Assembly: GCF_003287355.1 (NCBI RefSeq)
Contig: NZ_QMIM01000003.1
Coordinates: 1-64,000, forward strand
Length of the DNA: 64,000 nucleotides
From: Halorubrum sp. 48-1-W
Lineage (GTDB): Archaea; Halobacteriota; Halobacteria; Halobacteriales; Haloferacaceae
Direction: 5' to 3'
Shown: positions 35,913-60,267 of the stretch, in pieces
Position numbering within the stretch: the stretch's first letter is position 1
Layout of the letters: every line of letters starts with the position of its first letter
Translations under genes and position numbers: made by a program
The notes under the pieces: generated by a model
What the model was told of the DNA's origin: nothing
The model's input: the letters and a program-made list of their open reading frames with translations, nothing else
Databases searched by the model: none

Positions 35913-35942
35913 CCCCTCTACGCTCCGGGGGGAAAACAAAAA
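35913..35942 (-). promoter_or_regulatory. leader hairpin element, copy 1
   Basis: On the minus strand: TTTTGTTTTCCCCCCGGAGC, then GTAGAGGGG. T-rich box plus CCCC...GGGG stem, 54 bases before the SWIM gene start. Confidence 0.5.
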
Positions 35943-35982
35943 TGGCGGGTAGAACCAGCCGGTTCGGCTGGAGGGGTGATTT

Positions 35983-36030
35983 GTCCTACGTTACAATCTC
36001 GGCTATATCGTTTGGATAGTTACGTAGGAC
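35983..36030. promoter_or_regulatory. inverted repeat GTCCTACGTTAC/GTTACGTAGGAC, copy 1 (24-bp spacer)
   Basis: Half-sites at 35983-35994 and 36019-36030 with one mismatch to perfect symmetry. It lies between the divergent SWIM gene and the CoiA-like gene. Four more copies exist in the plasmid block. Confidence 0.75.
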
Positions 36031-36160
36031 AGTCGCCTACTGCGGCGAACGGACGGGTTTTCGGGGGGTTGTCGGGTTGATACCCCGAGTGCTATTTTAC
36101 CGCATGGCGCGAATTAGAACGTGAGCGATACCAGAAAACACCCCCGCCAAGAATCCCTTC

Positions 36161-37381
36161 ATGCCATACCTCGCCATGCGGCCGAACGGTGATCGGGTGC
36201 TCTCCTTAGACGTCGACGGCGACGACGACATTCTCTGTCCGCTGTGTGAAGAATCGCTGTTCCTCCGCCGATCGCATTACAACAATGGACGCTTCGTCTC
36301 GAAACACTTTGTCCACCACTCTGGGTCAGAGTGTCCGGGCGAGTCAAACCTCCACGCTAGATTCAAGACGATCGCGGCGATGAAACTCCGCGAGATTTTC
36401 GAGTCAGCAACCGTCAGTCACGAGTATACCATCCCGGGGACTGACCGAGTTGCGGATGTTGTCGCGACGTTTTCTGCGGAACTCTATCCGTTCGGGAAAG
36501 GCTTCATCGTCGAGATTCAGCACAAGCACGACGACAAGGAGATCGGCTCGCTCTCGTGGGACTACCTGGAAGCGGGATATTCGGTGTTCTGGGCGTATCA
36601 GTCTGACTTCGAGGGCCACGACATGAAGTTCGCCGAACATCGCGTGAAGAAACCGTGGCCCGATGCCGTCCCAATCGTCGAAGGTCTCGACGGCTACGCA
36701 GAGAGCGTGCGGCGGTTGATGAACCCGCCGGAACAGCCTGAGGTGAAGATGGAGATTCCGTTCCCAATGGAGTACCTGCGGGCCCACGCCCTCGAAGTGA
36801 TCCCGCCGCTTCGGGGGTACTACAATAAGGGCGTCTCACCTGAGGGATGGAAGAAGGTTGACGCAATTTCCCTCCACGAAAAGGGGCGCGAACGGGCGTG
36901 GGTCAACGTTCTCCGCTCACCCGCGAACCACATCTTTCTCGAGTGGTGGAAGAAGGATACCGAGCAGGGCAATTCGGAGTACATGATCGTCCACATCGGG
37001 AGCGAGTTTCCCGAGAGATTTGAAGCGTTCATGGAAGAAACAAAGGAGTGGTTTGACTCGGGGAGTGCAGACCAACAGGTTGCACACTGGGTCGGTGGCG
37101 CATCGCTGAGTTTCCGAGGGACGGAGTTGTGTGAGAGCTGGATCTCTATCGCCAAAGTGCCATACGGTCCAGTGAAAATTGTGGTCGCTCGACGCGACAA
37201 GAAGGGAAACACGCGGACGTGGGCAGTGAATTACCGAAAGGGAGACCTCGGACGTCTGGCGGCGCTGCGCCACCCGATCCGACGGCTCTTCGGTGAACCC
37301 GAGAGGGATGCAAAGGCGGCGAAGCCGTCGTCGGATAGGAAGCGGTCAACGAGCAACCCGCCAGAGATGGTATGGGACTAG
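36161..37381 (+). CDS. CoiA-like nuclease-domain protein
   Basis: 406 residues. An N-terminal Cys pair (CPLCEESLFLRR) and a HFVHHSGSECPGESNLHARFK segment resemble competence protein CoiA. A PD-(D/E)xK core follows: Asp in DRVADVVATF and ExQ in GFIVEIQHKHDD, then LSWDYLEAGYSVFWAYQ. The family acts on DNA during uptake or repair. The C-terminal 200 residues are not recognised; they contain a second possible domain (SANHIFLEWWKK-type strands). Confidence 0.7.
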   Translation: MPYLAMRPNGDRVLSLDVDGDDDILCPLCEESLFLRRSHYNNGRFVSKHFVHHSGSECPGESNLHARFKTIAAMKLREIFESATVSHEYTIPGTDRVADVVATFSAELYPFGKGFIVEIQHKHDDKEIGSLSWDYLEAGYSVFWAYQSDFEGHDMKFAEHRVKKPWPDAVPIVEGLDGYAESVRRLMNPPEQPEVKMEIPFPMEYLRAHALEVIPPLRGYYNKGVSPEGWKKVDAISLHEKGRERAWVNVLRSPANHIFLEWWKKDTEQGNSEYMIVHIGSEFPERFEAFMEETKEWFDSGSADQQVAHWVGGASLSFRGTELCESWISIAKVPYGPVKIVVARRDKKGNTRTWAVNYRKGDLGRLAALRHPIRRLFGEPERDAKAAKPSSDRKRSTSNPPEMVWD

Positions 37382-37404
37382 CGAGACGAACTGTTTTGAC
37401 TACG

Positions 37405-38025
37405 TTACGAACATTCTGACCAGCCGCAGGCTCGGCAGGTTTTGCATCCCTCCGAGTAATACAGGGATATTGACCCACACTCTGGACACTCGGGAGATTC
37501 GCCGGCTTCGAGGAGTTCAGCAGTGCCATCTTCCTGCTTATCGTCTTCCCGGTCACTATCGTTATCGTTGGCGCCCGTATTCAAGTTCGCATCGTGATCA
37601 GCGACCGTGCCACCGTCGGCAGTGTGTGCGGCTGTGGCGTCTTCTTCGACTGCTTCCGCGAGGTTCTGCTGATGGGGGTAGTCGAGGTGGGGATCACCCT
37701 CAAGATAGCGCGCCATCGCGAGGCCGATGGCGTCCGGGATGGATTGCGTCTTGTCACCTTTATCCCACCCAACCTTCGGTGAGCGAATGCCTCGGAGTTC
37801 GCTGGCGATCTCCTCGGGATCAAAACCGGAACGGAGCCAGGTTGAGACAGTCTTCGCGAGTGCCTCGGTAAAGGAAGCGGTGAATCCGCCGGAGTTCCCG
37901 ATATTCGCGAAGAGTTCGAACGGCCGGCCGTCGGCGTCCTCGTTGATAATGACGTAGAATTTGCCGTAGCCGGTCTGAACGCGCTGCGTGACGCCAGTGA
38001 GAACGTCTGGACATGGTTGCTTCAC
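37405..38025 (-). CDS. stand-alone TSCPD domain protein with zinc ribbon
   Basis: 206 residues from a GTG. Residues 10-75 (TGYGKFYVIINEDADGRPFE, GNSGGFTASFTEALAK, LRSGFDPEEIASELRGI) are the TSCPD domain otherwise found at the C-terminus of B12-dependent ribonucleotide reductase NrdJ. An acidic linker follows, then a four-Cys ribbon at the end (CPECGS...CKTCRACGWSEC). No catalytic reductase domain is present. The start overlaps the 44-residue upstream gene by 4 bp (GTGA). Confidence 0.8.
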   Translation of the reverse strand: MKQPCPDVLTGVTQRVQTGYGKFYVIINEDADGRPFELFANIGNSGGFTASFTEALAKTVSTWLRSGFDPEEIASELRGIRSPKVGWDKGDKTQSIPDAIGLAMARYLEGDPHLDYPHQQNLAEAVEEDATAAHTADGGTVADHDANLNTGANDNDSDREDDKQEDGTAELLEAGESPECPECGSISLYYSEGCKTCRACGWSECS

Positions 38026-38156
38026 GGCCAGTTTTCAGGGGATTTGGAGTCGGTTTCGGTTGGTTCTGTGGTGTCAACCTGGTTGTGTTTCATGGGGTTG
38101 AGTTCTGTTTTGTTGTAGGTCGTCTGATGATGTTTCGCTGTGACGACGGTCGACAT
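38022..38156 (-). CDS. 44-residue protein coupled to the TSCPD gene
   Basis: Frame MSTVVTAKHHQTTYNKTELN...ENWP. Its TGA lies inside the GTGA that starts the next gene, which argues for real translation. Low complexity, rich in Thr and His; no family recognised. A leader hairpin element lies about 100 bases upstream. Confidence 0.5.
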   Translation of the reverse strand: MSTVVTAKHHQTTYNKTELNPMKHNQVDTTEPTETDSKSPENWP

Positions 38157-38240
38157 GTCTCACCGTTCACCTAGGCAAAGATAGGGGCAGAATGAGGTTA
38201 AGAACATACGGAGAAATCGCCGGATAGGGCGGTTCTATGT

Positions 38241-38276
38241 GCGTATCCCCACGGGATGTCGGGGGTGACAAACGAG
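38241..38276 (-). promoter_or_regulatory. leader hairpin element, copy 2
   Basis: Minus strand: CTCGTTTGTCACCCCCGACA, then TCCCGTGGGG. TTTGTC box followed by a CCCC...GGGG stem. It lies between the gene ending at 38279 and the small gene starting at 38156. Confidence 0.55.
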
Positions 38277-38278
38277 AG

Positions 38279-38689
38279 TTAGAGCTCATCCCACGTGGGT
38301 GGCGCGGGCGACGAAGCAATCTCGTCGTCTGACTCATTCCCGAGGCCGTGGATGTACGCAAGCAGCTCTTCCGGTGGCGACATCGGTGAGACCGTCTCGG
38401 CATCGGCGGTGGACATGTTGTCTCCTTCGTGTTCGCCTTCCGACTCCTGTTCCTGGTCCTTTTCTCCGGGCGGGATCTCGCCGTTTTCCTCGTAGATGAC
38501 GTCAATTTGCTCGGTGAAGTGGCGGACGATACCCGGCCGATCACGGTTCGCCCGCTCGTGTTCGAGGTATAGTTCAACGGTCGCGACCTCTTCCATCATC
38601 TCGATCGCGGGCGTGATGACCCGCGTGTTCCGTGTATCGAGGAGTTTCTCGGGCGGAAGCTGTTCGAGGAGCGATTCATCGCCACTCAT
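38279..38689 (-). CDS. uncharacterised acidic protein
   Basis: 136 residues from MSGDESLLEQLPPEKLLDTR; this start overlaps the previous stop by 4 bp, which is why it is chosen over an upstream Met. The first 75 residues are helical (ITPAIEMMEEVATVELYLEH). The rest is an acidic, flexible tail. No family recognised. Confidence 0.5.
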   Translation of the reverse strand: MSGDESLLEQLPPEKLLDTRNTRVITPAIEMMEEVATVELYLEHERANRDRPGIVRHFTEQIDVIYEENGEIPPGEKDQEQESEGEHEGDNMSTADAETVSPMSPPEELLAYIHGLGNESDDEIASSPAPPTWDEL

Positions 38690-39030
38690 GCTTGTCCTGG
38701 GAGTGTCGGTGGCTCGAAGCGGTTCCACTCGTCGAGATGGGAACAGATGTCTGCGACGACGTATTCAATGGCTTCTACCGTCGACGAGTCGAGAGGTGGT
38801 GTCTCGACGATTACAGCGAGCTCGAGGGCATCCTCGAATCGGATGTGAGGGTGTGCGTCGTAGAGTACTTTGACGACAGCCTTCGCAAGTGTGTCTCCAT
38901 CGAGGGATCTGGGATCGTCGATAGCGTCTCGGGCGACGGCGGTGAGATGGTGCACACGGCGGGTGGCGGCGATACTGGCGTCGATGTCGCTGCTGGTGGA
39001 GATGCGCTGTGCGGTCGTGATAGTGTTCAT
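38686..39030 (-). CDS. uncharacterised helical protein
   Basis: 114 residues from MNTITTAQRISTSS. Helical throughout (SLDGDTLAKAVVKVLYDAHP, FEDALELAVIVETPP, STVEAIEYVVADICSHL). Its start lies about 10 bases from a leader hairpin (39041-39071) and about 57 bases from an inverted repeat (39087-39121). First gene of a two-gene operon. Confidence 0.55.
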   Translation of the reverse strand: MNTITTAQRISTSSDIDASIAATRRVHHLTAVARDAIDDPRSLDGDTLAKAVVKVLYDAHPHIRFEDALELAVIVETPPLDSSTVEAIEYVVADICSHLDEWNRFEPPTLPGQA

Positions 39031-39040
39031 CGGAATGAAT

Positions 39041-39071
39041 CCCTCCACCGAAGCGGGGGACGACAAACGAG
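39041..39071 (-). promoter_or_regulatory. leader hairpin element, copy 3
   Basis: Minus strand: CTCGTTTGTCGTCCCCCGCT, then TCGGTGGAGGG. The stem pairs TCCC-CCGC with GGTGG-A-GGGA. It ends 10 bases before the ATG at 39030. Confidence 0.6.
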
Positions 39072-39086
39072 GAGTGGTGATCCGGC

Positions 39087-39121
39087 CCTACGTTACATTA
39101 TTAGTACGAAGGTAGCGTAGG
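39087..39121. promoter_or_regulatory. inverted repeat CCTACGTTAC/GTAGCGTAGG, copy 2 (15-bp spacer)
   Basis: Half-sites at 39087-39096 and 39112-39121. It separates the divergent genes starting at 39030 (minus) and 39129 (plus), so it may control both. Confidence 0.75.
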
Positions 39122-39128
39122 ATGATAC

Positions 39129-39605
39129 ATGCCCGAACCTGACCCCGACGCTGGCGCTCCCGCCAGTCCTGAAGAGCGGGGCGAAGCAATGCCTACACCC
39201 CCGGAAGGGCTAGCAAAGCGCGTGTGGGAGCCCCTGCAGGTACAGACCGTGTACGATCTAGAGCGAGTCATCGACTACTGCGATGAACTCATCGAGCACA
39301 AGGAGCGACCGGTGTCTCCGGATGAGAAGGTCGGAGCGGGTGAGGTCGCAGTCGAGAAGCCACCGCAGAACCTATCCCGCGAAAAGCGGCGTGCAGCGAA
39401 AGAAGAGTTTGAGGAAATGAGTACGGAACAGCTAAAGGAACTGTCAGACGAGGAGTTAACTCGATATGGACACCTTCAGAAACGGAAGCTCCCGTGTGGG
39501 CCAGGATGCGATGGTTGCCCACATGGTCCGTATCGCTACACTGTCTATCGGGATCTTCGAGGAAAGGTGACCTCGAGGTATGCGGGGAAGGCTGATGGCG
39601 AGTAG
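39129..39605 (+). CDS. DUF6788-like small protein
   Basis: 158 residues. The last 40 residues, LPCGPGCDGCPHGPYRYTVY then VTSRYAGK, match the DUF6788 pattern (Cys cluster followed by GPY and YxGK), a family linked to mobile elements. The middle is a charged helix (SREKRRAAKEEFEEMSTEQL). It starts 7 bases after an inverted repeat. Confidence 0.6.
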   Translation: MPEPDPDAGAPASPEERGEAMPTPPEGLAKRVWEPLQVQTVYDLERVIDYCDELIEHKERPVSPDEKVGAGEVAVEKPPQNLSREKRRAAKEEFEEMSTEQLKELSDEELTRYGHLQKRKLPCGPGCDGCPHGPYRYTVYRDLRGKVTSRYAGKADGE

Positions 39606-39844
39606 CACGATCGCGTCGACGAGGCCACTTCTGAGGCTGTGAACATCTTGCTGAGCCCGTCGGATGTCGTCCTTTGACTCGCCTCGATGGTGTAGTCCCT
39701 TCGACGTGCTGAAAGGCTGGTACAAGAAGAAGCGTTGCGTAGCTATTACGCAACTCGGTTATTTTAACTTTCATCCGGTCTGATATACTACCACAAAACG
39801 GCAACTCGACATGATCGTCTTCAGTTCCTTGTTCAAAATCTGCC

Positions 39845-40921
39845 ATGCCTGATGCAACTGATTCGGAACACTGTCCGAAGTGTTCATTCGACCAGCTAGA
39901 GGCATTATACCAGATCAACGTTGAAGCGAAGAAGTACGCTGAGTCGGCAAGCAATAATTACTCCGGGGGAGCTAAAGCGCGAGCGCGGCATCACAGTATT
40001 CGGAAAAAGGCACTGTATGCGTTCAAACAGTCAATTCTCGAATCGTTAGTTGAGCGAGACTGCGTCGATGAGGTTCGCCTTCACAAAATCGACAACAGAG
40101 AATACTACTGCCTGTATATTGGTGAGTTCTCGTTCCATTCTCCGGTCGATGACTGGAGCGATCCGCCAGCTGATGACTTGTCTGCATCTCCGACGGAGTT
40201 GGATTCATTTGAGTCCGCAGCCGGTAGTCGAAGTGACTCTCTTTCGGAGCGTGAAGCACTCACTCGTCTGAGCGATGTGTTTGGGACGCCAAACGACTAT
40301 CTTTCAGCGCCGTTTGTTGAGTACCATCACCCCGAATTTGCTGGCTGGTCGTATCTCCCGGGAGCGATTGAAGAAGGTGACAAAGTTGACGGGCGTTTCG
40401 GTCGAGATACACAGAGTCCGTATGAAGAGTTTCTGTTTGTCGCTGGGGACGAATTTGACACGCAGAACGGACACTGCCGTATTCGTGACCGATACGAGGC
40501 GTGGCTGACACCACTCTGGGACCAATCTCCAATCACCCCAAGACCAGTCTACGACGTAGAACTTGATGGAGAGTTGCGAGAAGGCGTTCGACAGCGACGG
40601 CTTGTTGATGACTGGTATATTCTCGCTGAAACTCTGCATGACCCGCTTCCCGACGTAGAAGGGAGACAGGCGGAACTCGCAGGCAGCTCCTATGAACAAC
40701 CCGTCGAGTTCGACCTCGGTGATATTGTCGAAATTGATCCTGACAGGGACGAAAGCGGGCCATATTACTGGAGGATTGTCCAAGCGTCCATCTCCTACAA
40801 CTTGGTTCTCTGCAAGTTCGAGCCCGTTGGACCAACTGAACACTCCGAACCGTCACTTGCAGTCGAGGAGTTTGCTGATGACGTTGTCGCAGTCCATGAT
40901 TCCCCACCAGCCTTGGAGTGA
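39845..40921 (+). CDS. uncharacterised 358-residue protein
   Basis: Soluble protein. An N-terminal CPKCSFDQLEALYQINVEAK segment has a Cys pair. The middle contains aromatic-rich stretches (FVEYHHPEFAGWSYLPGAIE), and the C-terminal part has strand patterns (FDLGDIVEIDPDRDESGPYY). The base composition is less GC-rich than the neighbours, which hints at separate acquisition. No family recognised. Confidence 0.5.
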   Translation: MPDATDSEHCPKCSFDQLEALYQINVEAKKYAESASNNYSGGAKARARHHSIRKKALYAFKQSILESLVERDCVDEVRLHKIDNREYYCLYIGEFSFHSPVDDWSDPPADDLSASPTELDSFESAAGSRSDSLSEREALTRLSDVFGTPNDYLSAPFVEYHHPEFAGWSYLPGAIEEGDKVDGRFGRDTQSPYEEFLFVAGDEFDTQNGHCRIRDRYEAWLTPLWDQSPITPRPVYDVELDGELREGVRQRRLVDDWYILAETLHDPLPDVEGRQAELAGSSYEQPVEFDLGDIVEIDPDRDESGPYYWRIVQASISYNLVLCKFEPVGPTEHSEPSLAVEEFADDVVAVHDSPPALE

Positions 40922-40945
40922 CTCAGACAGACGCCCCGTTCGTAT

Positions 40946-42536: not shown

Positions 42537-42541
42537 TTTGA

Positions 42542-42579
42542 GTGGGCCTCCACCGCGTGGGGGCCCGACAAACGAGCAC
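42542..42579 (-). promoter_or_regulatory. leader hairpin element, copy 4
   Basis: Minus strand: CTCGTTTGTCGGGCCCCCAC, then GCGGTGGAGGCCCAC. Stem GGGCC-CCAC pairs with GGTGG-A-GGCCC. It ends 5 bases before the ATG at 42536. Confidence 0.65.
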
Positions 42580-42582: not shown

Positions 42583-44082
42583 TTAGTCCGCCGCGTCCTC
42601 GTTCTCGTTTTGCGAGTGCTGCACGGGAATCTCGAATATGATGTGACTCTCCGTATCCGTGGTGAGTTCGTCCACCTCGGTCCAGGTGTACCAGGCTTCT
42701 TCGAGGAGATCGGTTCGGTTGGGTGTCTCGGAGATGGCGTAGACCGAGGCGCTAATGCCTTCGGTGGCGAAGCGAATATCGACGGTGAGTTGGTCGGTGT
42801 CATCAGGTGAGACACCCATCTGACGGGTTTTGCTATCCGGGACATCGTCACTGCCGCTGTCCTGGTCGTCGAGATCGCCCCGGTAGCGGTGGGGGAGAAC
42901 GTGGTCGGGGATATCGTTCTGCTCGATCACCGCGTCCTCCCGCTCATCGAGTGTCTCCGTCAGGTCCGTGAGCTTCTCCTCGGCTGTCTCGATTGCGGTC
43001 TTCTTCCGGGCGTAGGTCTCATCCATGAAGTGGTACTTCCGGGTGTCGTCGTAGAAACGGATGCCCTCCGACCGCTCCCGTCGCTTGGTCCCCAGTATAC
43101 CGTAGCCCGCCAGATAGTCAGTCCGATACTCGGCATGGGTGTCACTCACGGTCTGCTCCCGGAGCCGAAAGCGCCCGATTGTTTCAGGCCAGTCGATATC
43201 TTCCTGCTCGGCCTGCTGTTCGGCCCGGTCGCGCTCCTCGGCCCGAACCTCCTTGATGTGCGGAACGAGTTCGTCGAGCGCGTCCTGGGCGCTCTCGTGG
43301 AACTGCCCGCTCCCGTCCCGCCGGGTCCCCACCGGGTCGACGTATTCGATGTCCCACTCACCGGCGCCGGATGAGACGTCGTCGTCCCGAAGCCACATTT
43401 CGGCCAAGTAGCCGTCCGGATGCTCAACGAGGATCGAGGGCTCTTGCTCGGCGTCCTCGTGCTCATCGACGATTGTCCAGTGTTCGGGAACGTCCAGAGA
43501 GTCAACGATCCCCTCCATGACCGTCTGTTCGGTCACACTCTCGACGCCCTCGAGCTCATCGACGTCGCCGCCGGCATCCTCGATTGCCTGGGCATTGACG
43601 TTGATGGGGAGACCGTGGCGGGTGATTCCACGGGCCTTTAATTTCGGTATCGTTGTCCGGATCGATTTGGCCGAAGCGTCCCCGATTCCCGGCCACTCCG
43701 ATAGGTCCTCGGTGTTATCTTCGACTTTCAGGACGTGACTGGCACCCGAACCCATCTCTTTGATCGAGTTGGCGACGTTTCCAGTGACTTCGAAGGCTCG
43801 AGTGATCGTGGAGGGGGTCCATGAGCCGTTGGCCAGCGCATCGAGCGCACTCTCCCGAGTTCCACCATCGAGGTATTCCGGGTCCTCGGTCGCCTGGCTG
43901 CCGGTGAGATCCGTCTGCCCCTCGATCACCTCGGAAGCGAGGCTGGCCTGCTCGCCGGGGTTAGCAGGCGGGTCGCACACGTCGTTTCGGTTGTCGACGA
44001 ACTCGTCACTCCTGTCCACGACCTCTCCAGTGGAGTTCGTCGAATTGTTGCTACTCGCGTCGGTCGGCGGTGGTGAGGGCAT
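42583..44082 (-). CDS. large uncharacterised protein with helix-hairpin-helix-like motif
   Basis: 499 residues from MPSPPPTDASS. EDLSEWPGIGDASAKSIRTTI near residue 125 resembles a helix-hairpin-helix DNA-binding motif. VDEFVDNRND-type N-terminal residues recall the protein at 52194. A coiled coil lies near residue 350 (ARKKTAIETAEEKLTDLTET), and a beta-rich C-terminal domain ends in SHIIFEIPVQHSQNENE. It has both an inverted repeat and a leader hairpin upstream. Confidence 0.55.
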   Translation of the reverse strand: MPSPPPTDASSNNSTNSTGEVVDRSDEFVDNRNDVCDPPANPGEQASLASEVIEGQTDLTGSQATEDPEYLDGGTRESALDALANGSWTPSTITRAFEVTGNVANSIKEMGSGASHVLKVEDNTEDLSEWPGIGDASAKSIRTTIPKLKARGITRHGLPINVNAQAIEDAGGDVDELEGVESVTEQTVMEGIVDSLDVPEHWTIVDEHEDAEQEPSILVEHPDGYLAEMWLRDDDVSSGAGEWDIEYVDPVGTRRDGSGQFHESAQDALDELVPHIKEVRAEERDRAEQQAEQEDIDWPETIGRFRLREQTVSDTHAEYRTDYLAGYGILGTKRRERSEGIRFYDDTRKYHFMDETYARKKTAIETAEEKLTDLTETLDEREDAVIEQNDIPDHVLPHRYRGDLDDQDSGSDDVPDSKTRQMGVSPDDTDQLTVDIRFATEGISASVYAISETPNRTDLLEEAWYTWTEVDELTTDTESHIIFEIPVQHSQNENEDAAD

Positions 44083-44085: not shown

Positions 44086-44121
44086 GTGGGCCTCCGCCGT
44101 GCGGGGGCCGGACAAATCGAG
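44086..44121 (-). promoter_or_regulatory. leader hairpin element, copy 5
   Basis: Minus strand: CTCGATTTGTCCGGCCCCCG, then CACGGCGGAGGCCCAC. Stem GGCC-CCCGC with GCGG-A-GGCC. Starts 3 bases before the ATG at 44082. Confidence 0.65.
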
Positions 44122-44168
44122 CCCTACGCAACATACGGACACCGACAGTTCGCACCGTAACGTAGGAC
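44121..44168. promoter_or_regulatory. inverted repeat GCCCTACGCAAC/GTAACGTAGGAC, copy 3 (24-bp spacer)
   Basis: Half-sites at 44121-44132 and 44157-44168. It directly abuts leader copy 5 and precedes the gene starting at 44082. Confidence 0.75.
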
Positions 44169-44178: not shown

Positions 44179-44939
44179 TTACGGCCGCTCGTCCACGACC
44201 TCGTCCCAGAGCCCTTCGTGGTATTCGACGTAGTTGCGCTCGGTCTGTGTCCGATATGCGAAAGTGCGCCCGTCTTCGTAGGTGACGATGATGGCCTGCT
44301 CGATGGGATAGGGGCCATCTTCGTCCTCGTAGTCCACTAGTTCTGCCCACTCATCGGGTGACCCAAGCGGATCGGGATCGCTGAGATCCCCTCCGTTGGC
44401 AGCCCAGATCGGGTCGTCCGGTTCTTTGACGGCGGGCTCGAGGCGTTCGATTGGCGTCTTCCCCTCGGCGGGCCACACTCCACGTTCCTCCCAGAATGCT
44501 CGCATCTCACGGAGGCTTCGACGGACGGTCTCGCGGATGGTGAGGAAGTCAGCGTCTTGCCACCCGTCGCGTGACCAGGATTCGCCTTTGTAGGCGATAC
44601 CCTGCGGGCCGTTCCAATCGAGACCGATGATGTCCGCAGGCGGGTCCCCTGTGAGATTCGGTTGGGTGAGCTCCTGGATGACGCGCCATTGCTTCGTCGG
44701 GCTGGCTCCAAGGAGATGCACACGGTGACCGCGCCAGTTGGCGATATCCGAGAAGTGCCACGCTTTGATGTTTGAACGCCCCATCGCGTATCCGAGGACG
44801 AGCGATTCCCCGGGGATATCAGCGTTGGCGACGATATCGATGGCCTCGCGACACTTCGGGACGATGATGATGGTCGCGTCTGGGTAGTCGGATTTGAGTT
44901 CGCGGGCGGCGTCGACAAACGTGTGTGCTTCCTCAGGAG
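44179..44939 (-). pseudogene. DUF6610-like gene, C-terminal part (split by IS6 insertion)
   Basis: Continuation of the gene at 45638-46087. The frame runs EEAHTFVDAARELKSDYPDA, IIIVPKCREAIDIVANADIP, SLVLGYAMGRSNIKAWHFSD and on to the stop at 44179. Joining the two parts across one copy of the 8-bp duplication restores a 400-residue frame (VGDARTPE-EAHTFVDAAREL). A Met inside this part could start a 201-residue fragment, but without the N-terminal domain. Confidence 0.8.
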
Positions 44940-45637
44940 GGTCGTGTCAAGTTAAGCGTGAAGAGTGAGGCGTGCTGATTTCTGAGTGTCTATGCCCGAA
45001 ATCACACGCCTCAGCGATGGTAGCGACTGGATCGAATTAGATTTTGTGGAGCGCCAGCGGACACCCGAGTTCGCGATGCGGCTCGGTATTCAGATGCACG
45101 TGGCAGGACTATCACTTTCAAATACCATCTCAATTCTTGATAGGTTGGGTGTCGAACGCTCTCGAACAGCCGTCCACAACTGGGTGCACAAGGCCGATCT
45201 ACAGCCCGATGGCGGGGCGAGCCCGAATCACGTTGCGCTCGACGAAACCGTGATTCGAATCAACGATCAACAATACTGGCTGTATGCCGCCATCGATCCT
45301 GAAACGAACACATTCCTCCATATTCGGCTCTTTAGCACGTATACGACCGGTCTCACCGAAATCTTCCTGAGCGAATTACGCGAGAAACACGATGTCGAAA
45401 CCGCCGTGTTTCTCGTCGACGATGCTCAGTGGCTCAAAACCGCCCTCGACCGACACGGCCTCGATTGCAGATATGAACGCCATGGCAATCGGAATGCCGT
45501 CGAACGTATATTTAGAGAAGTAAAACGACGAACTTCTTCGTTTTCAAATACGTTCAGTCACGTGGAGCCAACGACAGCAGAATCGTGGCTCCAAGCCCTC
45601 GCTGTCTGGTGGAATCGATGCCAAAGTTAACGCGACC
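44940..45637 (+). mobile_element. IS6-family insertion sequence with 8-bp target duplication
   Basis: 698 bp. The left end is GGTCGTGTCAAGTTAAGC and the right end reads inward GGTCGCGTTAACTTTGGC. CTCAGGAG flanks it on both sides (44932-44939 and 45638-45645), an exact 8-bp duplication as expected for IS6. The intact duplication suggests a recent insertion. Confidence 0.85.
44992..45630 (+). CDS. IS6-family transposase
   Basis: 212 residues (a GTG at 44986 would add two). The DDE residues are HVALDETVIRIN (first Asp), AVFLVDDAQWLK (second Asp) and NRNAVERIFREVKRR (Glu), with the typical C-terminal WLQALAVWWN. The short length and the layout match haloarchaeal ISH14/ISH15-type proteins. Intact. 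Confidence 0.9.
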   Translation: MPEITRLSDGSDWIELDFVERQRTPEFAMRLGIQMHVAGLSLSNTISILDRLGVERSRTAVHNWVHKADLQPDGGASPNHVALDETVIRINDQQYWLYAAIDPETNTFLHIRLFSTYTTGLTEIFLSELREKHDVETAVFLVDDAQWLKTALDRHGLDCRYERHGNRNAVERIFREVKRRTSSFSNTFSHVEPTTAESWLQALAVWWNRCQS

Positions 45638-46087
45638 CTCAGGAGTGCGGGCATCGCCAACGACACCGATTTCGGGCTCAACCTCACGGAAGCGGGTGAG
45701 ATACCGATCGAGGTCGGGCCGATTGAAATCGTTGTCGAGCATGAGGATCGGGACGTCAACGTTGCGGAGATGGCTATCCTGAATCCGACAGTCCTCGCGA
45801 GCGCCGGTAACGAATCCGAGGGCGTATGCCTCAGTCGCAAACGGGGCTCGATGAAGGAACCCGATGTACTCGGCACGACGAGCGACTTCGATAGGAAGCG
45901 CGTCCTCTTCGCGTTCTCGTTCGGTGTTGCTGTCGGCCTCGATCTCGGACCGGTGGTCGGAATGCTCGCCTCCCGATGCCTGGTGTCTGTCCTCGAGTGT
46001 GTCAAGAGTCGCCGGCGAGAGGTACGTGGAGAGGTCGAGTTGGCCGTGGCCGATGCTCTCGGCTGAACTGGTATTGGAACTCACCAT
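45638..46087 (-). pseudogene. DUF6610-like gene, N-terminal part (split by IS6 insertion)
   Basis: 150 residues: MVSSNTSSAESIGHGQLDLS, then RRAEYIGFLHRAPFATEAYA, VPILMLDNDFNRPDLDRYLT and EIGVVGDARTPE, where the insertion occurs. This pattern resembles haloarchaeal DUF6610 proteins. Beyond the insertion the frame would read into IS sequence. The gene begins behind a leader hairpin element (46115-46147). Confidence 0.8.
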
Positions 46088-46114
46088 AGGAAGTGGCCGT
46101 CAGGATGGTCAGCT

Positions 46115-46147
46115 GGCGGCGCACGGCTCCGCCGCCGACAAAACTGG
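46115..46147 (-). promoter_or_regulatory. leader hairpin element, copy 6 (variant stem)
   Basis: Minus strand: CCAGTTTTGTCGGCGGCGGA, then GCCGTGCGCCGCC. Same TTTGTC box, but the stem is GGCGGCG/CGCCGCC. 27 bases before the start at 46087. Confidence 0.5.
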
Positions 46148-52622: not shown

Positions 52623-52701
52623 AGTGAACGAGCGGTGTCGGTATCAGTACTCGTCAACAACCCCAATCTCAAGCGCCGGGGCTTGTCAGTGAGCTCACGC
52701 T

Positions 52702-53928
52702 CTAACTGCGAAGCGCAGTAGGCCTGAAATGACCGTTCGCGTTCACTACTCCTGACTTCAGGGCCAGTTGACCGGTGGCCCGTCCAGAACCAGACTTGAG
52801 CCAGTTCTGGACAAGACGCCACGCCACGTTCCGCGCAGCATTATAATCGGCGTGCAGCTTCTTCCCGCATTTCAGACATTCGAACTTATCACTATCCCGA
52901 TTATGATTGTGGATGTATCCACACTCACCGAGACTACACCGTTGTGACGTGTATTGGGGAGCGACTTTTTCCACTCCGATATTGTATTCTTCGGCCTTGT
53001 ACTCGACTTGTCGCTGGAGTTTACGAAACGCCCACTGTTGGAACTTCGAGGCATTCGAGATACGCGTCCAAACGTACGTCAATCGCTCAAACGCGATGTA
53101 CGTACAGTCGTGTTCAATAGCTTCTTGAATAATATCGTTTGACACGTTGTGCAGACGATGCCGACTCCACTCGGCAAACCTATCACCAATTGACTGGATA
53201 GTAAGGTGCGCTGAGCGAGTACCTGTCTGTTGTAGATCTCCGCGGCGACGTTCGTATTCGTCGCGTTTGTGGTTCAACTCGTTCGCGTTCCCGAGAAACG
53301 CTCCCGTGCTGGTAACGGCGAGGTAGCCATCTACGTTCAAATCGACGCCGAGAACCACTCCGTTCTCGGTCGAATCATCACTAGAATTAGTATCGCCTAC
53401 GTGGTCAACGGCAACGTGGAGATAGTATTCACCGTCGCGCTTGTGAAGCGTGGCCTCTTTTTTTACCCACTCATTTTCGTTCCAATACTCCTCAAACGGC
53501 GTTCCCATATCTTCATGTGGGAACACGTATTCGGCACGGATTCGTCCGTCTACCGTCGAGAGGGTACAGTGATCGTCATTATACGTTATCGTATTGGAAT
53601 TGTATGTAACAACCGTTCCTTTGAATCCTGGCTTACTCGTACTCTTCCTGTCTTCAAGCAAGCGCTTGCCGTTCGAGAGAGCGTTAGCCGCGAGGTTTCG
53701 AGCAGATTGAACGTGTCCCCCTGTAAGCGGTGAGTCCTCGCGGATTTCACGGTACGTAGCTTCGTTGAGTTGGTTTTTGTTGGTGATAATGTCGTCAGGG
53801 TCGTTGCTCCAACCGTAATCAATGACGGGTTCGGTGACTCGTTGAAACTCTTCAAACGTGGCATCCACTGTCGAGTGGTTTTCCTTGGTAATATCGAGTT
53901 TGACCTGAATGTTCCTGACGATGGTCAT
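52702..53928 (-). CDS. tnpB: TnpB RNA-guided nuclease (IS1341 type)
   Basis: 408 residues, intact. RuvC Asp in VVLGVDLNVDGYL, Glu in YIAFERLTYV, and last Asp in HADYNAARNVAWR. Zinc-finger Cys lie in QRCSLGECGY and FECLKCGKK. No TnpA is adjacent, as usual for IS1341 elements. A CCCC...GGGG hairpin at about 52662-52682 probably marks the right end. It is inserted between a leader element (54131) and the gene at 52194. Confidence 0.9.
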   Translation of the reverse strand: MTIVRNIQVKLDITKENHSTVDATFEEFQRVTEPVIDYGWSNDPDDIITNKNQLNEATYREIREDSPLTGGHVQSARNLAANALSNGKRLLEDRKSTSKPGFKGTVVTYNSNTITYNDDHCTLSTVDGRIRAEYVFPHEDMGTPFEEYWNENEWVKKEATLHKRDGEYYLHVAVDHVGDTNSSDDSTENGVVLGVDLNVDGYLAVTSTGAFLGNANELNHKRDEYERRRGDLQQTGTRSAHLTIQSIGDRFAEWSRHRLHNVSNDIIQEAIEHDCTYIAFERLTYVWTRISNASKFQQWAFRKLQRQVEYKAEEYNIGVEKVAPQYTSQRCSLGECGYIHNHNRDSDKFECLKCGKKLHADYNAARNVAWRLVQNWLKSGSGRATGQLALKSGVVNANGHFRPTALRS

Positions 53929-53983
53929 ATTCCGTAGTCCATAGGATTATTAATTGTGTCTGGATCGTAGCACGTGCGTTACG

Positions 53984-54094
53984 TCATCTCGTAATGGGCT
54001 TCATCCTTGAGACCAAGTCTCGGAGTTCCCGCCCTACATCGCCGATAGATTGTAGTTCCTGCAGAACGGGTGATTCGACTGATATGATTCTCAC
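53984..54094 (-). CDS. 36-residue ORF behind an orphan leader element
   Basis: From GTG: VRIISVESPVLQELQSIGDV...SRMKPITR. A regular helix pattern and leader copy 7 just upstream favour a real small gene. Alternatively it is the start of a gene cut by the TnpB insertion. Confidence 0.35.
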   Translation of the reverse strand: MRIISVESPVLQELQSIGDVGRELRDLVSRMKPITR

Positions 54095-54130
54095 GTCGTG
54101 CGGATTAGTGGGGTTGATGAGGCAGGCGAT

Positions 54131-54162
54131 CCCCGCACCGCGTCCGGGGGCGACAAACGAGT
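54131..54162 (-). promoter_or_regulatory. leader hairpin element, copy 7
   Basis: Minus strand: CTCGTTTGTCGCCCCCGGAC, then GCGGTGCGGGGA. TTTGTC box and CCCCG...CGGGG stem, without a large gene directly after it. Confidence 0.55.
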
Positions 54163-55445: not shown

Positions 55446-55502
55446 AGGTACAGTAGGACGGGTCTGGTCATAAGTGAGACTGAATCACATCAAATGTGGC
55501 GG

Positions 55503-55934
55503 CTACAGTTCTTTCGAAGGGTATGGCTCGTCTGTCTCGACGCCGTCGGTGTCATCGTCATCTTCGACCTTGACTTCCTCACGGAGACGAGTTTTTTCAG
55601 CACAGTGGTCAGAGAGGACCTGACAGAGGCGTTGGCGCTGGCTCTCAAGAGTCGTCTGGGCGCTCCGTACTCGGCGAGCTCGGTCGAACGCGAACGGGTC
55701 GCGATACTGCAGATGCGTCGGGATACTGACTTTGGCGAGGTCACCCCCGGATGAGACACCGAGTTCTCTAAGATAGCGTCGGAGCAGCGCCTCCGTAGAG
55801 CCGATTTTCGACCGCAGTGCTCGAAGCGTGCGCTCGTGACCGGATGAGAGACCGTCACGCGCCTCGTAGTCGATAGCATCGAGGTCGATATCCTCCCACC
55901 GAGGCACGTTATTGGGCGTAGAGTCACCGGTCAT
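55503..55934 (-). CDS. uncharacterised helical protein
   Basis: 143 residues, mostly helical and charged (SSGHERTLRALRSKIGSTEA, LLRRYLRELG, RVRSAQTTLESQRQRLCQVL). Overlaps the upstream gene by 4 bp (ATGA). No family recognised. Confidence 0.5.
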   Translation of the reverse strand: MTGDSTPNNVPRWEDIDLDAIDYEARDGLSSGHERTLRALRSKIGSTEALLRRYLRELGVSSGGDLAKVSIPTHLQYRDPFAFDRARRVRSAQTTLESQRQRLCQVLSDHCAEKTRLREEVKVEDDDDTDGVETDEPYPSKEL

Positions 55935-56266
55935 GCACTGGCTTGCGCTTCGTCCGGGATATTCGCGCTCGGTGCGTCTGGGGTGATGGGTGCGCAGACG
56001 GCGGGCGGGTCGGGATCGGTGTCGTTGTTGTTCTGAAAGCGACGGGCGATTCGGTCGTGGAGTGTTGTGCGCTCCCGATCGTCGTCCGTGTCATCGTACG
56101 GACGGCCGGTAGGGAGGGCGATTCGACCGGAGATCGTCCCGTCGCCGTGAGCGGTGAAGAGGACGTGGTCGGTGGCGTAGCCAAACGTGTTGACCGCGAG
56201 TTCGTGGAGCTGTTCTACTTCACTACGGGTGCGTTCAGGCGCGTCTTCTGCGACTTCATAGGTCAT
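55931..56266 (-). CDS. uncharacterised small protein
   Basis: 111 residues: VEQLHELAVNTFGYATDHVL and FTAHGDGTISGRIALPTGRP form a small compact N-terminal part, followed by a flexible tail. First gene of a two-gene operon with a leader hairpin and an inverted repeat upstream. Confidence 0.5.
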   Translation of the reverse strand: MTYEVAEDAPERTRSEVEQLHELAVNTFGYATDHVLFTAHGDGTISGRIALPTGRPYDDTDDDRERTTLHDRIARRFQNNNDTDPDPPAVCAPITPDAPSANIPDEAQASA

Positions 56267-56277
56267 GTTTGTACGTC

Positions 56278-56307
56278 CCTCACCGGCACGGGGGGCGACA
56301 AAACTGG
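56278..56307 (-). promoter_or_regulatory. leader hairpin element, copy 8
   Basis: Minus strand: CCAGTTTTGTCGCCCCCCGT, then GCCGGTGAGGG. It lies 11 bases before the ATG at 56266 and touches the inverted repeat at 56307. Confidence 0.6.
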
Positions 56308-56345
56308 TCCTACGCTACGCTCGCGTCCGTACTGTAACGTAGGAC
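56307..56345. promoter_or_regulatory. inverted repeat GTCCTACGCTAC/GTAACGTAGGAC, copy 4 (15-bp spacer)
   Basis: Half-sites at 56307-56318 and 56334-56345, 11 of 12 bases symmetric. Upstream of the operon starting at 56266. Confidence 0.78.
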
Positions 56346-56418
56346 GCTGAACGCCGGAAGAACGATTCAAAATGCTCCGATCGAGACCTGTTCGTTGACT
56401 TCCTCCCACAACTGAAGT

Positions 56419-57814
56419 CGTGGAATTCCTCCGTTGGGATGTCGGGCTATGCCGATTCCACGGAGGCAAGATTCCCCACCGTGCGGTGGGTACTTCGGTT
56501 TGTGCGCTCCTCGTTGGGACTTGCCCTCTCGAGAGAGTGTGGTATCTCCGACCAGTGATGGTCGTCCCACTTGAGGCGCACCGGCTGAGCCATCAGCCCC
56601 ACTTCCGTCCCAGTCTCACGTTCGAGGAACACCTGACTCGCTTTGAGATCGGCGTGTCCCTCGTACCCACAGACGCAGCGGAACAAGTCACCGTTCCGCT
56701 CCGTCTCTTCACGTTCACCGCACCCTGGACACTCCTGTGTCGTCCACGCCTCAGATTCCTCAAGCAGGTCGATGCCGTACTCCTCGCAGACACACTCCAG
56801 CCGGTGGATGAACCGTCGGTACGCCCAGAAGTTGTGCGTCTTCGCGTTCACTTCGGCCTTCCAGTGGGTCGAGAGGACGTCTCGAATGTCGCCGACATAC
56901 ACTGTGGATACGCCGTCAACGTACAGCCGTTCGACGAGGTCGCGAACGAGTGCGTCTTGAGCGTGATCACGCCGCCCGTACATCTGGTCATACAATCGGT
57001 CGATCCGCTTGCTTGTTCGCCGCTGGTCGTCGAGTTTTGACTGGAGTTCTGCGATTCGGTTGGCTGCCTCGCGGAACTGCTCAAACGGCTGTGAGCCGTC
57101 GTACAGGAACTGCTCACCGGTTGTGGTGGTACAGGCGACAAGGTTGTTGGCACCGATGTCCAGAGCGGCTGTTTCATCAGCCAGTGGAGTTGCCCGTGTG
57201 TCGTCAGGAATGGTCACGGGCTGCGAAGCTCTGAATGTGCCATCAGTTTCGTCGTACCACAGTTCCAATCGACCTTGGTCCTCATAATCGGGCCAGTTCA
57301 GTTCGCCCACGATTTCCAACCGGAGGCGGCTTTTCGGACTGTTGTGTCTGTCTCGTAGTTCTTCTCCGACGATCATCTCGAGTCGGGAACGCGTGCCCCA
57401 CTCGACACTGTATGCGTCCTTTCGAATGACTCCTTTCAGAACACGGCCGTCGTCTTTGTTGCCACGAAACCCGGGCGGACTGGGGTGTTCCGTGACGGAG
57501 TCGTCTGATTGGTCGTGGTACTGCTGTTTGTTTCTGAAGAACGCAGTCCACGCGTTGGAGTTCTTCTGGATCACTTGCTGGGCGGTGGACGCACCGAGGA
57601 CTGGTTTGTATTGGCCTTCGAGTGAGCCGGTGTCGGCGTCCCAGACACTCTCGTCTTCGAGGCCGTCTTCGTCGTTGTACCGCATGAGGCGCTCGTAGTT
57701 GACCTCGTTCCAGAGTGCAGCTGACGCATCCAACAGATCCCGCAGTACGCGCTCTCCAGCCTGTGAGAGCGGTCGCACGGCGAACGTGTTGGTGCGCTTC
57801 ATCGCTGTACGCAC
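56419..57814 (-). mobile_element. IS1341-type TnpB element
   Basis: A right-end hairpin, CGTGGAAT (56419-56426) with ATTCCACG (56455-56462), overlaps the tnpB stop at 56447. The left border lies at or beyond 57814. No tnpA is present. The small helical gene at 57859 may belong to the element. Confidence 0.6.
56447..57814 (-). CDS. tnpB: TnpB RNA-guided nuclease (IS1341 type), second
   Basis: 455 residues, intact. First RuvC Asp in AALDIGANNLVA, Glu replaced or located in the VYVGDIRDVL region, zinc-finger Cys in QECPGCGERE and FRCVCGYEGHADLKASQVF with the last Asp. The second acidic position reads Asp (GDIRD) rather than the usual Glu (FEDL) and should be checked. The C-terminal tail beyond the nuclease core covers the likely guide RNA. 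Confidence 0.88.
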   Translation of the reverse strand: MRTAMKRTNTFAVRPLSQAGERVLRDLLDASAALWNEVNYERLMRYNDEDGLEDESVWDADTGSLEGQYKPVLGASTAQQVIQKNSNAWTAFFRNKQQYHDQSDDSVTEHPSPPGFRGNKDDGRVLKGVIRKDAYSVEWGTRSRLEMIVGEELRDRHNSPKSRLRLEIVGELNWPDYEDQGRLELWYDETDGTFRASQPVTIPDDTRATPLADETAALDIGANNLVACTTTTGEQFLYDGSQPFEQFREAANRIAELQSKLDDQRRTSKRIDRLYDQMYGRRDHAQDALVRDLVERLYVDGVSTVYVGDIRDVLSTHWKAEVNAKTHNFWAYRRFIHRLECVCEEYGIDLLEESEAWTTQECPGCGEREETERNGDLFRCVCGYEGHADLKASQVFLERETGTEVGLMAQPVRLKWDDHHWSEIPHSLERASPNEERTNRSTHRTVGNLASVESA

Positions 57815-57858
57815 CTAGAACCTATAGATATGAATATCTATGCTATTTCTATTGAGGT

Positions 57859-57996
57859 ATGACGAACAATATTCACATCCAAGTGGACGACGACGAGCAG
57901 TTCGAGAAGATGAAGGAGTTGAAGGACAAGTACGGATTGACGTCGAAAGGTCTGCTGGTACAGGGGATGAAGCGGGTGGAGGAAGGAGAACTGTAA
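57859..57996 (+). CDS. 45-residue ribbon-helix-helix-like protein beside TnpB
   Basis: MTNNIHIQVDDDEQFEKMKE...VEEGEL. A short N-terminal strand followed by two helices (LKDKYGLTSKGLLVQGMKR) resembles a mini ribbon-helix-helix DNA-binding protein. It is divergent from tnpB with 45 bases between. Similar tiny genes are known next to haloarchaeal TnpB genes. It may regulate the element. Confidence 0.65.
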   Translation: MTNNIHIQVDDDEQFEKMKELKDKYGLTSKGLLVQGMKRVEEGEL

Positions 57997-58048
57997 CGTG
58001 GGACATCCCGCGGGCAGGCGACGTTGAACGGGTTCTGAACTGGCGGAT

Positions 58049-58276
58049 TCACCCCACGACAGAAGTCATGGGCTCTCTCCTGCATTCTCTGTAGTGGCCT
58101 TCGTCGACAGCGAGGCGGTCACGCTTTCCGTGAGGATGAACGAAATTACCGGCGTGCCCCGACGGGCGCTTGCACTTAGTGCCGATAGGAGCGCTACACG
58201 ATGGGCACCCTACCTCAAGCACGGGATCGCGGGGCCACGTTCGATCACAGCCGTCGCGATTGCAGGAGAGGGTCAT
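58049..58276 (-). CDS. small phage-type zinc-finger protein
   Basis: 75 residues. CNRDGCDRTWPRDP and CPSCSAPIGTKCKRPSGHAG, then HPHGKRDRLA, match the short zinc finger known from phage proteins (CPxCxAxxGxxCxxxxG...H...R). It overlaps the methylase-like gene by 4 bp and is the last gene of a three-gene operon. Confidence 0.65.
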   Translation of the reverse strand: MTLSCNRDGCDRTWPRDPVLEVGCPSCSAPIGTKCKRPSGHAGNFVHPHGKRDRLAVDEGHYRECRREPMTSVVG

Positions 58277-59178
58277 ACGAACTCGTCGAAACCAGCCTGG
58301 GAGGTGTCACTCGGGTCGAGCGTGACATCGAGGTTCGGTGCGAGTGTTGGTTCTTCGGGTGTTGGTTCCGGGTCGACGTCCAGCTCAGATTCGGTGTCCG
58401 GTTCCTCTTGTGCGGCGCCGGCGTCGGTGTCGTCGTCGATGAGGGATACACCGAAGAATCGGGCGAGGACGCGGTCACGCTCGCTCGTGTCGAGTTCTCG
58501 CACAGGATGGTCGCCCCCGATGAGCTGGGCAGTGCTGATGAACCATACCCGTCGGGCATCGAGTTTCAAGGCGTCACCGAGTAGGACGTACCCGGTCATA
58601 GCGTTGAGAACGAAGTTGAGAACGGCCATCTTCGCGCAGAGAGGATCTTTGTCGTATCCGAGATAGACGGCTGGAGTCTCTGGTGCGAGGTTCTGGAGTC
58701 GATGGGCACTGTCGACGATGAGTCGACCGCTCCCGCACCCAGAGACATCACCGATCACCAGAGGGTCGTCCGGCGTGGCCTCACGGAGGCTATCGGTGTC
58801 GGGGAGGTTCATCTGGGCCATCGCTCGGCTCACCGCTCCGGGCGTGAAGTACTGGGCGAAGTGCTCGCTGGTGAGGCCGTAGTGTTCGTAGACGCCGCCG
58901 AGGACATCTTCTTGCGTTTCCTCCATCGCAAGGACGAGACCCCCGAGGGCGTTGGCGTGCAGCGTCGCGAACTCTCGAACCGTCTCCTCGTCCCGACCAT
59001 CATTTCGATACCGGTCGAGCGGTTTCTGATAGGCGTCTTCGTCGCCGGAGAAGCTGGCGACCGCCATACTGATCCAATCGGAGAAGACCCGGTAGGTGGA
59101 TTTACCCGTCTGCTGACTGATGTCGTCGAGCGAGTCAGTGACGAGTTCGCGGTGTTCGGGTTCCAAGAGTGTCGTCAT
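58273..59178 (-). CDS. HsdM-like N6-methylase fold without NPPY motif
   Basis: 301 residues. The N-terminal half matches type I methylase subunits: DVLGGVYEHYGLTSEHFAQY, FTPGAVSRAMAQMN, and a SAM motif DVSGCGSGRLIVDSA (canonical DPACGSGG). GYDKDPLCAKMAVLNFVLNA is also typical. The catalytic NPPY/NPPF motif is missing: after LLGDALKL the sequence goes to RRVWFIS. It may bind SAM without methylating, or act with another subunit. It overlaps both neighbours by 4 bp. Confidence 0.75.
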   Translation of the reverse strand: MTTLLEPEHRELVTDSLDDISQQTGKSTYRVFSDWISMAVASFSGDEDAYQKPLDRYRNDGRDEETVREFATLHANALGGLVLAMEETQEDVLGGVYEHYGLTSEHFAQYFTPGAVSRAMAQMNLPDTDSLREATPDDPLVIGDVSGCGSGRLIVDSAHRLQNLAPETPAVYLGYDKDPLCAKMAVLNFVLNAMTGYVLLGDALKLDARRVWFISTAQLIGGDHPVRELDTSERDRVLARFFGVSLIDDDTDAGAAQEEPDTESELDVDPEPTPEEPTLAPNLDVTLDPSDTSQAGFDEFV

Positions 59179-60191
59179 GGCGACGGGTGACCTCCCGCTG
59201 TTCGCGGCTGGTGAGAAACGGCGATCTCGGGACTAGCGAATCGACGAGCGCGGTGAGGGACGTGGATACCCCGGGTGAGAGGGATGAATATTGAGTCGTG
59301 GTCGCCACAGACGATGCTCGCGAGAAGTTCGTGTTTACACATCACGCGGAAGGGAGCGGATTGCTTGTACGGGCACGAACAGGTGAGGGCGTCCCCCCAC
59401 GGGATGAATGGGTACTGGCTCCCGCTGTCGTATTCTCCGACAAGGACGGGTGCGGGGAGTTCGATACCGTAGTCAGCGAGAGCCACTGGTTCGTCAGTGT
59501 TCGCGTGTGAGAGCACAGATTCCTGGAGGACGTACACCGAGTCGATGTCATGTTCTCGGGCGATTGCGTCGGGGTTGGTGTCGTCGTCAACGATGACCAT
59601 CCCCACGAAGGCGTTGTGCTCGAGGAGGTGGTTGGCGTCGGGAGTGGGTCCGATGCACTTCTCGATCAGCGACCCATAGGACGACTCCTTGAGGATCTGG
59701 CGGAGATTCGCGCCGGGGATGAGTTCCTGATACCACTTCTCCCGGTCCTTACGCACCTTACGGACGGCTTCGTGAGGGTCGGATTGCTCACTAGCTTCGC
59801 GGATACGTGCGGCAAGGTAGGCAGGTGCGTCGGCCAGAACAGTGTCATCGTCGGCGTGTTCGTAGAACTTCTCCTCTTCGCGAATCCGCACATCACACGA
59901 TGCTTCGGCGTAATCGAGGCCCCTCGGCTTCTGTTTTATTCCCCGCCAGGGATGGGTTGCGGGAGTCTCAGCCTTGTACGACCAGGGATTGTAGTTTCCA
60001 AGGAGTTGGTCGCGGCGGACAGGCCCACCGCGCATGAAGTCGAGGCGAATCTGGTGTTCGATGGGTTCGACGTTCGGTGGATCGCGATCAACTTCGTAGT
60101 CGTAGTCACGGTCTATGTGGGCGAGTGCGCCTGGTGGCAACGCCAGGTGGGGCACACTGCCGTTAGCTGAGTGGATGGTTCGACAGGACAT
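59175..60191 (-). CDS. SWIM zinc-finger protein 2
   Basis: 338 residues. A SWIM finger near the C-terminus: ALTCSCPYKQSAPFRVMCKH with C-x-C...C-x-H. The N-terminal 250 residues contain RRDQLLGNYNPWSYKAETPA and DPHEAVRKVRKDREKWYQEL, of unknown fold. It is the first gene of the SWIM - methylase-like - zinc-finger operon and has both the leader hairpin and the inverted repeat upstream. Confidence 0.7.
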   Translation of the reverse strand: MSCRTIHSANGSVPHLALPPGALAHIDRDYDYEVDRDPPNVEPIEHQIRLDFMRGGPVRRDQLLGNYNPWSYKAETPATHPWRGIKQKPRGLDYAEASCDVRIREEEKFYEHADDDTVLADAPAYLAARIREASEQSDPHEAVRKVRKDREKWYQELIPGANLRQILKESSYGSLIEKCIGPTPDANHLLEHNAFVGMVIVDDDTNPDAIAREHDIDSVYVLQESVLSHANTDEPVALADYGIELPAPVLVGEYDSGSQYPFIPWGDALTCSCPYKQSAPFRVMCKHELLASIVCGDHDSIFIPLTRGIHVPHRARRFASPEIAVSHQPRTAGGHPSP

Positions 60192-60234
60192 GATTGACGA
60201 AGGACGGAGTGCGGACGCCGGTCGTCTGCTGGAC

Positions 60235-60267
60235 GCCCCGCTACCGATACGGGGGGCAACAAACTGG
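60235..60267 (-). promoter_or_regulatory. leader hairpin element, copy 9
   Basis: Minus strand: CCAGTTTGTTGCCCCCCGTA, then TCGGTAGCGGGGC. GCCCC...GGGGC stem. 44 bases before the start at 60191. Confidence 0.55.

Follow-up and report, generated by a model that had tools for sequence, protein, structure and literature searches.

Opening question and overview

Why do unrelated genes on one strand of a haloarchaeal plasmid stand behind copies of the same short box and hairpin? The window analysed here comprises positions 1-64000 of the 204-kb plasmid contig C24 of Halorubrum sp. 48-1-W, whose whole haloarchaeal assembly amounts to 3.58 Mb. Its minus strand carries nine copies of a leader element, each upstream of a co-oriented gene and composed of a GTTTGT(C/T) box, the first base of which differs in a few copies, and a GC hairpin that follows after 0-2 nt. 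The pairing of the hairpin is under selection, the stem sequence changing while pairing is kept. We lean towards the view that these copies belong to a family of cis-acting mRNA leader elements that would operate on the individual cistron, after transcription.

Detection of the leader element

A loose form of the pattern, TTTGTYGNCCCCC with up to 2 mismatches, has 18 matches in the window against 8.1 ± 3.1 in shuffled sequence, and none of 100 shuffles reaches 18. Covariance model R1, trained on copies from plasmids of the window's type, was run over the 3.58 Mb assembly; of its 16 matches with E < 0.3, 14 lie on C24 and occupy its minus strand between 35910 and 80810, and weaker matches on this contig extend to 82542 on the same strand. 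Six additional copies are situated further along on C24. As a non-circular test, model R2 was trained exclusively on other plasmid types (39 copies), its structure being derived automatically. Seven window copies out of nine are found with it at E <= 0.014; those at 44086 and 46112, whose stems are not C-runs, are missed. All nine minus-strand copies listed in an initial annotation of this DNA are present, and the box proposed there, (C/A)NNTTTGT(C/T)G, is confirmed in a form better written GTTTGT(C/T).

No Rfam 15 covariance model matches at the window leader sites (the sole match in the window, sot2652, lies elsewhere), and seven element-carrying loci gave no Rfam 15 match at E <= 1. A literature search by words and by box sequence found no description of the element. 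Further copies of the broader type occur on contigs C16 and C21 of the same assembly (L186 2477 and 3575; L187 1006), which suggests a second plasmid with the system in this strain.

Conservation of pairing

In an arm-swap test, hairpin arms score 1172 for pairing with their own partners and 1037 ± 18.6 after swapping (z = 7.3, 0/5000), and the 27 copies without a plain C5 arm score 368.5 against 300.8 ± 13.4 (z = 5.1, 0/5000), with a control that ignores kinship among copies. The effect is present separately in window-type and in other plasmids. The covariation score is 0.191, compared with 0.058 ± 0.010 for shuffled alignments (0/500) and a maximum of 0.097 when the alignment is slid; the alignment was fitted to the model and is hence biased towards it. 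At the leader at 42542, the inner stem CCAC/GTGG becomes CCGC/GCGG in the related-plasmid stretch L018, both sides being altered. In one region of Halobacterium salinarum R1 PHS1, several cistrons have boxes of the GTTTGTT, GTTTATC or T-run kind, and the stems behind these boxes are unrelated, one being inverted, with its G-rich arm preceding the C-rich arm. The compensatory stem change postulated in the initial annotation is borne out by the arm-swap test, by pair counts and by the model from other plasmids, and the covariance-model search of haloarchaeal plasmids that it called for supports the pairing and recovers the element across plasmid types.

The nine window leaders

All nine leaders lie on the minus strand and are described here in order of descending coordinate, with orthologous copies in related-plasmid stretches given in brackets. 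The leader at 60233..60264, with box GTTTGTT and hairpin GCCCC/GGGGC, stands upstream of a hypothetical gene at 59175-60191 (R1 35.4 bits; R2 E = 1.8e-5; orthologs L017 8225, L018 4087, L019 5525, L092 and L093). At 56272..56303, the leader precedes the gene 55931-56266 with a box-to-ATG distance of 36 nt (R1 31.7 bits; R2 E = 5e-4; L017, L018, L019 and L034). The copy at 54127..54158 is orphaned (R1 31.6 bits; R2 E = 1.4e-6; L017 14424 and L019 14424): to judge from where the alignment with related plasmids breaks, the gene behind 54157 has been cut off by an insertion at about 52650-54045, which contains a TnpB gene. The leader at 46112..46143 has a divergent stem, GGCGGCG/CGCCGCC, and lies upstream of a DUF6610 gene, the N-terminal part of which occupies 45554-46087 (R1 23.3 bits; missed by R2; L017, L018, L019 and L033). 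This DUF6610 gene is interrupted by an insertion at 44939-45637, again seen as alignment breaks against related plasmids.

A gene for a 499-aa protein (42583-44082) follows the leader at 44086..44117, which has a GGCC/GGCC stem and a box-to-ATG distance of 34 nt (R1 30.5 bits; missed by R2; L017, L018, L019 and L033). The leader at 42542..42573, with stem GGGCC/GGCCC, lies 9 nt past the upstream stop codon, and a 77-codon gene starts near 42537 (R1 36.9 bits; R2 E = 0.006). At 39037..39068, a TCCC/GGGA stem precedes the gene 38686-39030, 37 nt separating box and ATG (R1 38.8 bits; R2 E = 6e-4; L017, L018, L019, L033 and L105). The leader at 38242..38273 is located a few nucleotides past an upstream stop codon (R1 21.0 bits; R2 E = 0.002; L017 and L018), and the next ATG, at 38156, begins merely a short frame. 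The last copy, at 35910..35941, has stem CCCC/GGGG and lies upstream of the gene 35313-35858 (R1 24.5 bits; R2 E = 0.014; L017 and L018). The 3-45 bases to the start codon given in the initial annotation do not always apply, since the box-to-ATG distance is about 82 nt at 35940, about 116 nt at 38272 and at least 72 nt at 60263.

Anatomy and gene context

The anatomy of the element was described from 84 non-redundant copies, filtered by hand to remove likely chance matches in coding sequence. The box is nearly invariant, an invariance partly imposed by the search model, and has a sharp 5' edge, the columns upstream holding almost no information; inspection by eye of copies from H. salinarum R1 PHS1 and other sources shows the variants GTTTATC and GTTTTTC. 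The GC hairpin comprises about 4-9 bp, with a short inner stem and often a small bulge on the 3' side. No aligned TATA box or B recognition element (BRE) stands upstream of the box in the 84 copies. The BRE/TATA at about -27 from the start site that characterizes haloarchaeal leaderless genes is thus missing, and in copies with a box-to-ATG distance of 34-37 nt it is the hairpin that sits at -27.

Box-to-ATG distances cluster at 34-37 nt (about 17 of 82 copies) and at 46-64 nt, followed by a longer tail that is less certain, since a script took as start codon the first ATG (or GTG) with an open frame of 45 codons or more behind it. For 33 of the 84 copies, an upstream open frame of 80 codons or more ends no more than 50 nt away; some of these frames may be due to chance. 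Sequestration of a Shine-Dalgarno (SD) sequence was rejected as a general rule: an SD-like 3' arm 5-10 nt before the AUG is found only in the 34-37 nt class, the remaining copies being 46-64 nt or further away from the ATG. Pairing of the box with the linker before the ATG was likewise rejected. The longest complement averages 3.15 nt, whereas shuffled linkers give 2.95 ± 0.08 and reach the observed value in 1 of 300 shuffles, and 7% of linkers, compared with 5% of shuffled ones, offer at least 5 pairs to the box; such pairing is nominally above chance, yet too short to matter.

Some leaders have additional features. The leader of a plasmid TFB gene (L023 33335-33384; L026 8572-8603) contains a consecutive C-run, G-run and C-run, so its two hairpins would be mutually exclusive; the true TFB start may lie 90 nt upstream of the annotated one. 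Among leaders of DUF6166 genes (L106 3999-4057; L058, L124 and L126), some have a second possible hairpin directly after the first, GCTCG/CGAGC or GTTCG/CGAAC, and in some the first C-run has an alternative pairing. From L023 37716 to 38035, a conserved, apparently non-coding leader of about 290 nt with indels extends between hairpin and start codon.

Possible modes of action

In the mechanism that we favour, the transcript of a cistron would carry the single-stranded box GUUUGUC (variants GUUUAUC and GUUUUUC), mostly 34-64 nt before the start codon, and the GC hairpin 0-2 nt after it. A host or plasmid RNA-binding factor, for which an Sm/Lsm-like protein is one candidate, would recognise the U-rich box beside the hairpin and set translation or stability cistron by cistron, whereby a single factor could tune a scattered gene set. 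On window-type plasmids, an inverted repeat (described below) would add transcriptional control at some operon heads, probably via a DNA-binding regulator. Action at the RNA level is supported because stems vary freely within one replicon while pairing is kept, and because copies also stand between packed cistrons; the arrangement suggests a shared switch acting gene by gene. The structured RNA leader for unrelated plasmid genes envisaged in the initial annotation stands as regards a shared, paired leader, and its action as RNA is likely.

Several observations weigh against this mechanism. The antisense strand folds about as well as the sense strand, and better relative to shuffled composition, and many single copies fold barely better than shuffled sequence. 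In the alignment, C-A oppositions are more numerous than G-U, chiefly at helix ends and the conserved bulge; the two core pairs show U-G four times and C-A not at all. Transcription of the element is something we infer, and no partner protein was identified for it.

It is conceivable, if unlikely, that the box is instead a plasmid-specific promoter element, a substitute for a TATA box or initiator perhaps read by plasmid TFB/TBP, and that the palindrome is an operator or initiator feature of double-stranded DNA. The near-invariance of the box is compatible with this, as is the 34-37 nt class, since promoters of leaderless haloarchaeal genes usually lie at about this distance; however, the box-to-ATG distance of other copies is 46-64 nt or longer, and some directly follow upstream stop codons. 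TFB and TBP are both encoded on one such plasmid, and its TFB gene bears the element, but a single protein binding double-stranded DNA would not explain the free variation of stem sequence and loop length, with pairing preserved, inside one plasmid.

The hairpins could also act on single-stranded plasmid DNA at conjugative entry, as promoters or protein sites for early leading-region genes, in the manner of Frpo of plasmid F, where hairpins likewise precede co-oriented genes of a conjugative element (PMC9849209). We judge this very unlikely. Frpo stem loops rebuild -35/-10 boxes and are few per plasmid (two are described in F), whereas the element consists of small hairpins before many cistrons per module, with stems of 4-9 bp that are too short for rebuilding a BRE and TATA promoter. 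Copies do keep to one strand per module (all significant C24 copies; L018/L023, L093/L094 and L101), but adjacent genes are mostly on the same strand anyway; some element-bearing plasmids are typed MPF_T, but MOB-suite types most as non-mobilizable, and an origin of transfer (oriT) was not located. The comparable stability of antisense (template) hairpins would suit such a role, as would a gene set including DNA methylases, a Mom-like protein, TFB and possibly RPA. The more specific idea of an archaeal counterpart of single-stranded DNA promoters, firing establishment genes (methylases, Mom-like protein and TFB) before second-strand synthesis, appears less probable still.

Also very unlikely is an RNA processing site at which polycistronic transcripts would be cut at the U-rich box and the hairpin would cap the new 5' end: it would fit the copies that stand where cistrons are closely spaced, and the hairpin immediately 3' of a U-rich single strand, but copies also head operons downstream of the inverted repeat, and a shared cleavage motif has not been found among haloarchaeal internal processing sites, their sole reported signature being CGGCCG downstream of a stem-loop (PMC8303175).

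A separate inverted repeat

The initial annotation joined the leader to an inverted repeat in a two-part cis system. The repeat does precede five of the nine window leaders; of the four leaders without it, three directly follow an upstream cistron, no more than 20 nt from where an open frame of 80 codons or more ends. The five repeats are located at 35985..36028 and 44123..44166, with half-site centres 34 bp apart, and at 39087..39121, 56309..56343 and, in imperfect form, 60280..60314, with centres 25 bp apart. The one at 39087..39121 also stands just upstream of a plus-strand open reading frame at 39129-39605. In 33 repeats from window-type plasmids, the half-site reads CCTACGYWAC, positions 7-8 being variable, and centre distances form two classes, 24-25 bp and 33-37 bp, which differ by roughly one turn of DNA. 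Own halves score 295 and swapped halves 291.1 ± 4.3 (p = 0.20), i.e., without covariation, and a second RNA hairpin was rejected on this basis. All seven perfect copies in the genome lie on C24, and the repeat is confined to window-type plasmids. Given the lack of covariation between halves, the spacing classes roughly a helical turn apart and the restriction to window-type plasmids, the repeat is probably a DNA operator of a plasmid regulator, distinct from the leader. The two parts would thus be separate, the leader being widespread without the repeat.

Distribution among haloarchaeal plasmids

Homologs of the 499-aa protein encoded behind the leader at 44086 were found on plasmids of Haloplanus sp. 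HW8-1, Halobellus sp. DFY28 and Halorarius halobius, where the element occupies orthologous sites with the same genes downstream. Other element-bearing genes on these plasmids encode an AAA ATPase, a VWA protein, a DNA cytosine methyltransferase, the plasmid TFB and small unknown proteins; in L017, L018 and L023, a co-oriented annotated coding sequence lies downstream of nearly every copy. The Halorarius plasmid (L023, L024 and L025) also encodes TBP, Orc1/Cdc6, a sliding clamp, two RPA-like genes and a BREX system besides TFB.

An order-wide search found matches with E <= 0.01 in 59 of 382 genomes, several genomes having clusters on one contig and part of the single matches probably being due to chance. 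An exact-pattern scan of 257 Gb of prokaryote genomes returned 17 matches, all 17 haloarchaeal, and a short blastn query hit 122 plasmid records, all haloarchaeal among the 60 listed. Within these searches, the element is restricted to haloarchaea and mostly to plasmids, which represent more than 20 named genera. An unknown plasmid protein of 125 aa has relatives in 111 of 392 genomes, and the element stands upstream in all 30 orthologs fetched, which are its closest relatives and not 30 independent cases.

A viral origin was rejected, as the element pattern has no match in viral contigs and the 499-aa and 125-aa proteins have no phage match. The boundary of a gene cassette or transposon was also rejected: insertions near elements are insertion sequences and an insertion resembling a miniature inverted-repeat transposable element (MITE), none bordered by the element. 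A MITE-like insertion at about 13305-13528 of L033 has terminal inverted repeats CATGCGTCTTTAGTTAA and a repeated flank CTCGTGCTCG, and separates a cistron's stop codon from the leader of the following cistron.

Related systems and significance

Many haloarchaeal genes have leaderless transcripts, and structured leaders common to a whole gene set are, to our knowledge, little known in haloarchaea. Operators of phage coat proteins (MS2/PP7 type) are small bulged hairpins close to the start codon, and the 34-37 nt class of the element similarly puts its G-rich 3' arm at the would-be SD position. In contrast to these operators, the element serves many genes with variable stems, and most of its hairpins lie too far upstream of the start codon for masking a ribosome site.

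Stem loops in haloarchaeal 5' untranslated regions (UTRs) are required for translational regulation, which is abolished when they are altered (Brenneis and Soppa 2009, PMC2636863). These stem loops share with the element their position in haloarchaeal 5' leaders; however, they concern two individual genes and cooperate with the 3'-UTR, whereas here a box and hairpin recur over many unrelated plasmid genes. Sites of Sm/Lsm proteins (SmAP1, Hfq) consist of a U-rich single strand beside a hairpin, resembling the U-rich heptamer and GC hairpin described here; the near-fixed GTTTGTC differs from the general U-run of such sites. In haloarchaea, SmAP1 shows a preference for AU-rich transcripts and regulates genes of mobile elements (PMC10134880).

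The presence of the element in laboratory species, namely in H. salinarum R1 PHS1 and Natrinema J7-2 pJ7-1, makes it directly testable. If it is a post-transcriptional tag, it would help in studying how unrelated genes are coordinated on archaeal plasmids and how haloarchaeal translation starts without the usual SD site. As a simple signature, it can also be used to find genes belonging to this plasmid system, the majority being of unknown function.

Apart from the leaders, the Rfam match in the window is the sense-overlapping transcript sot2652, at 34841-35025 on the plus strand, at the end of a TnpB gene (33658-34962).

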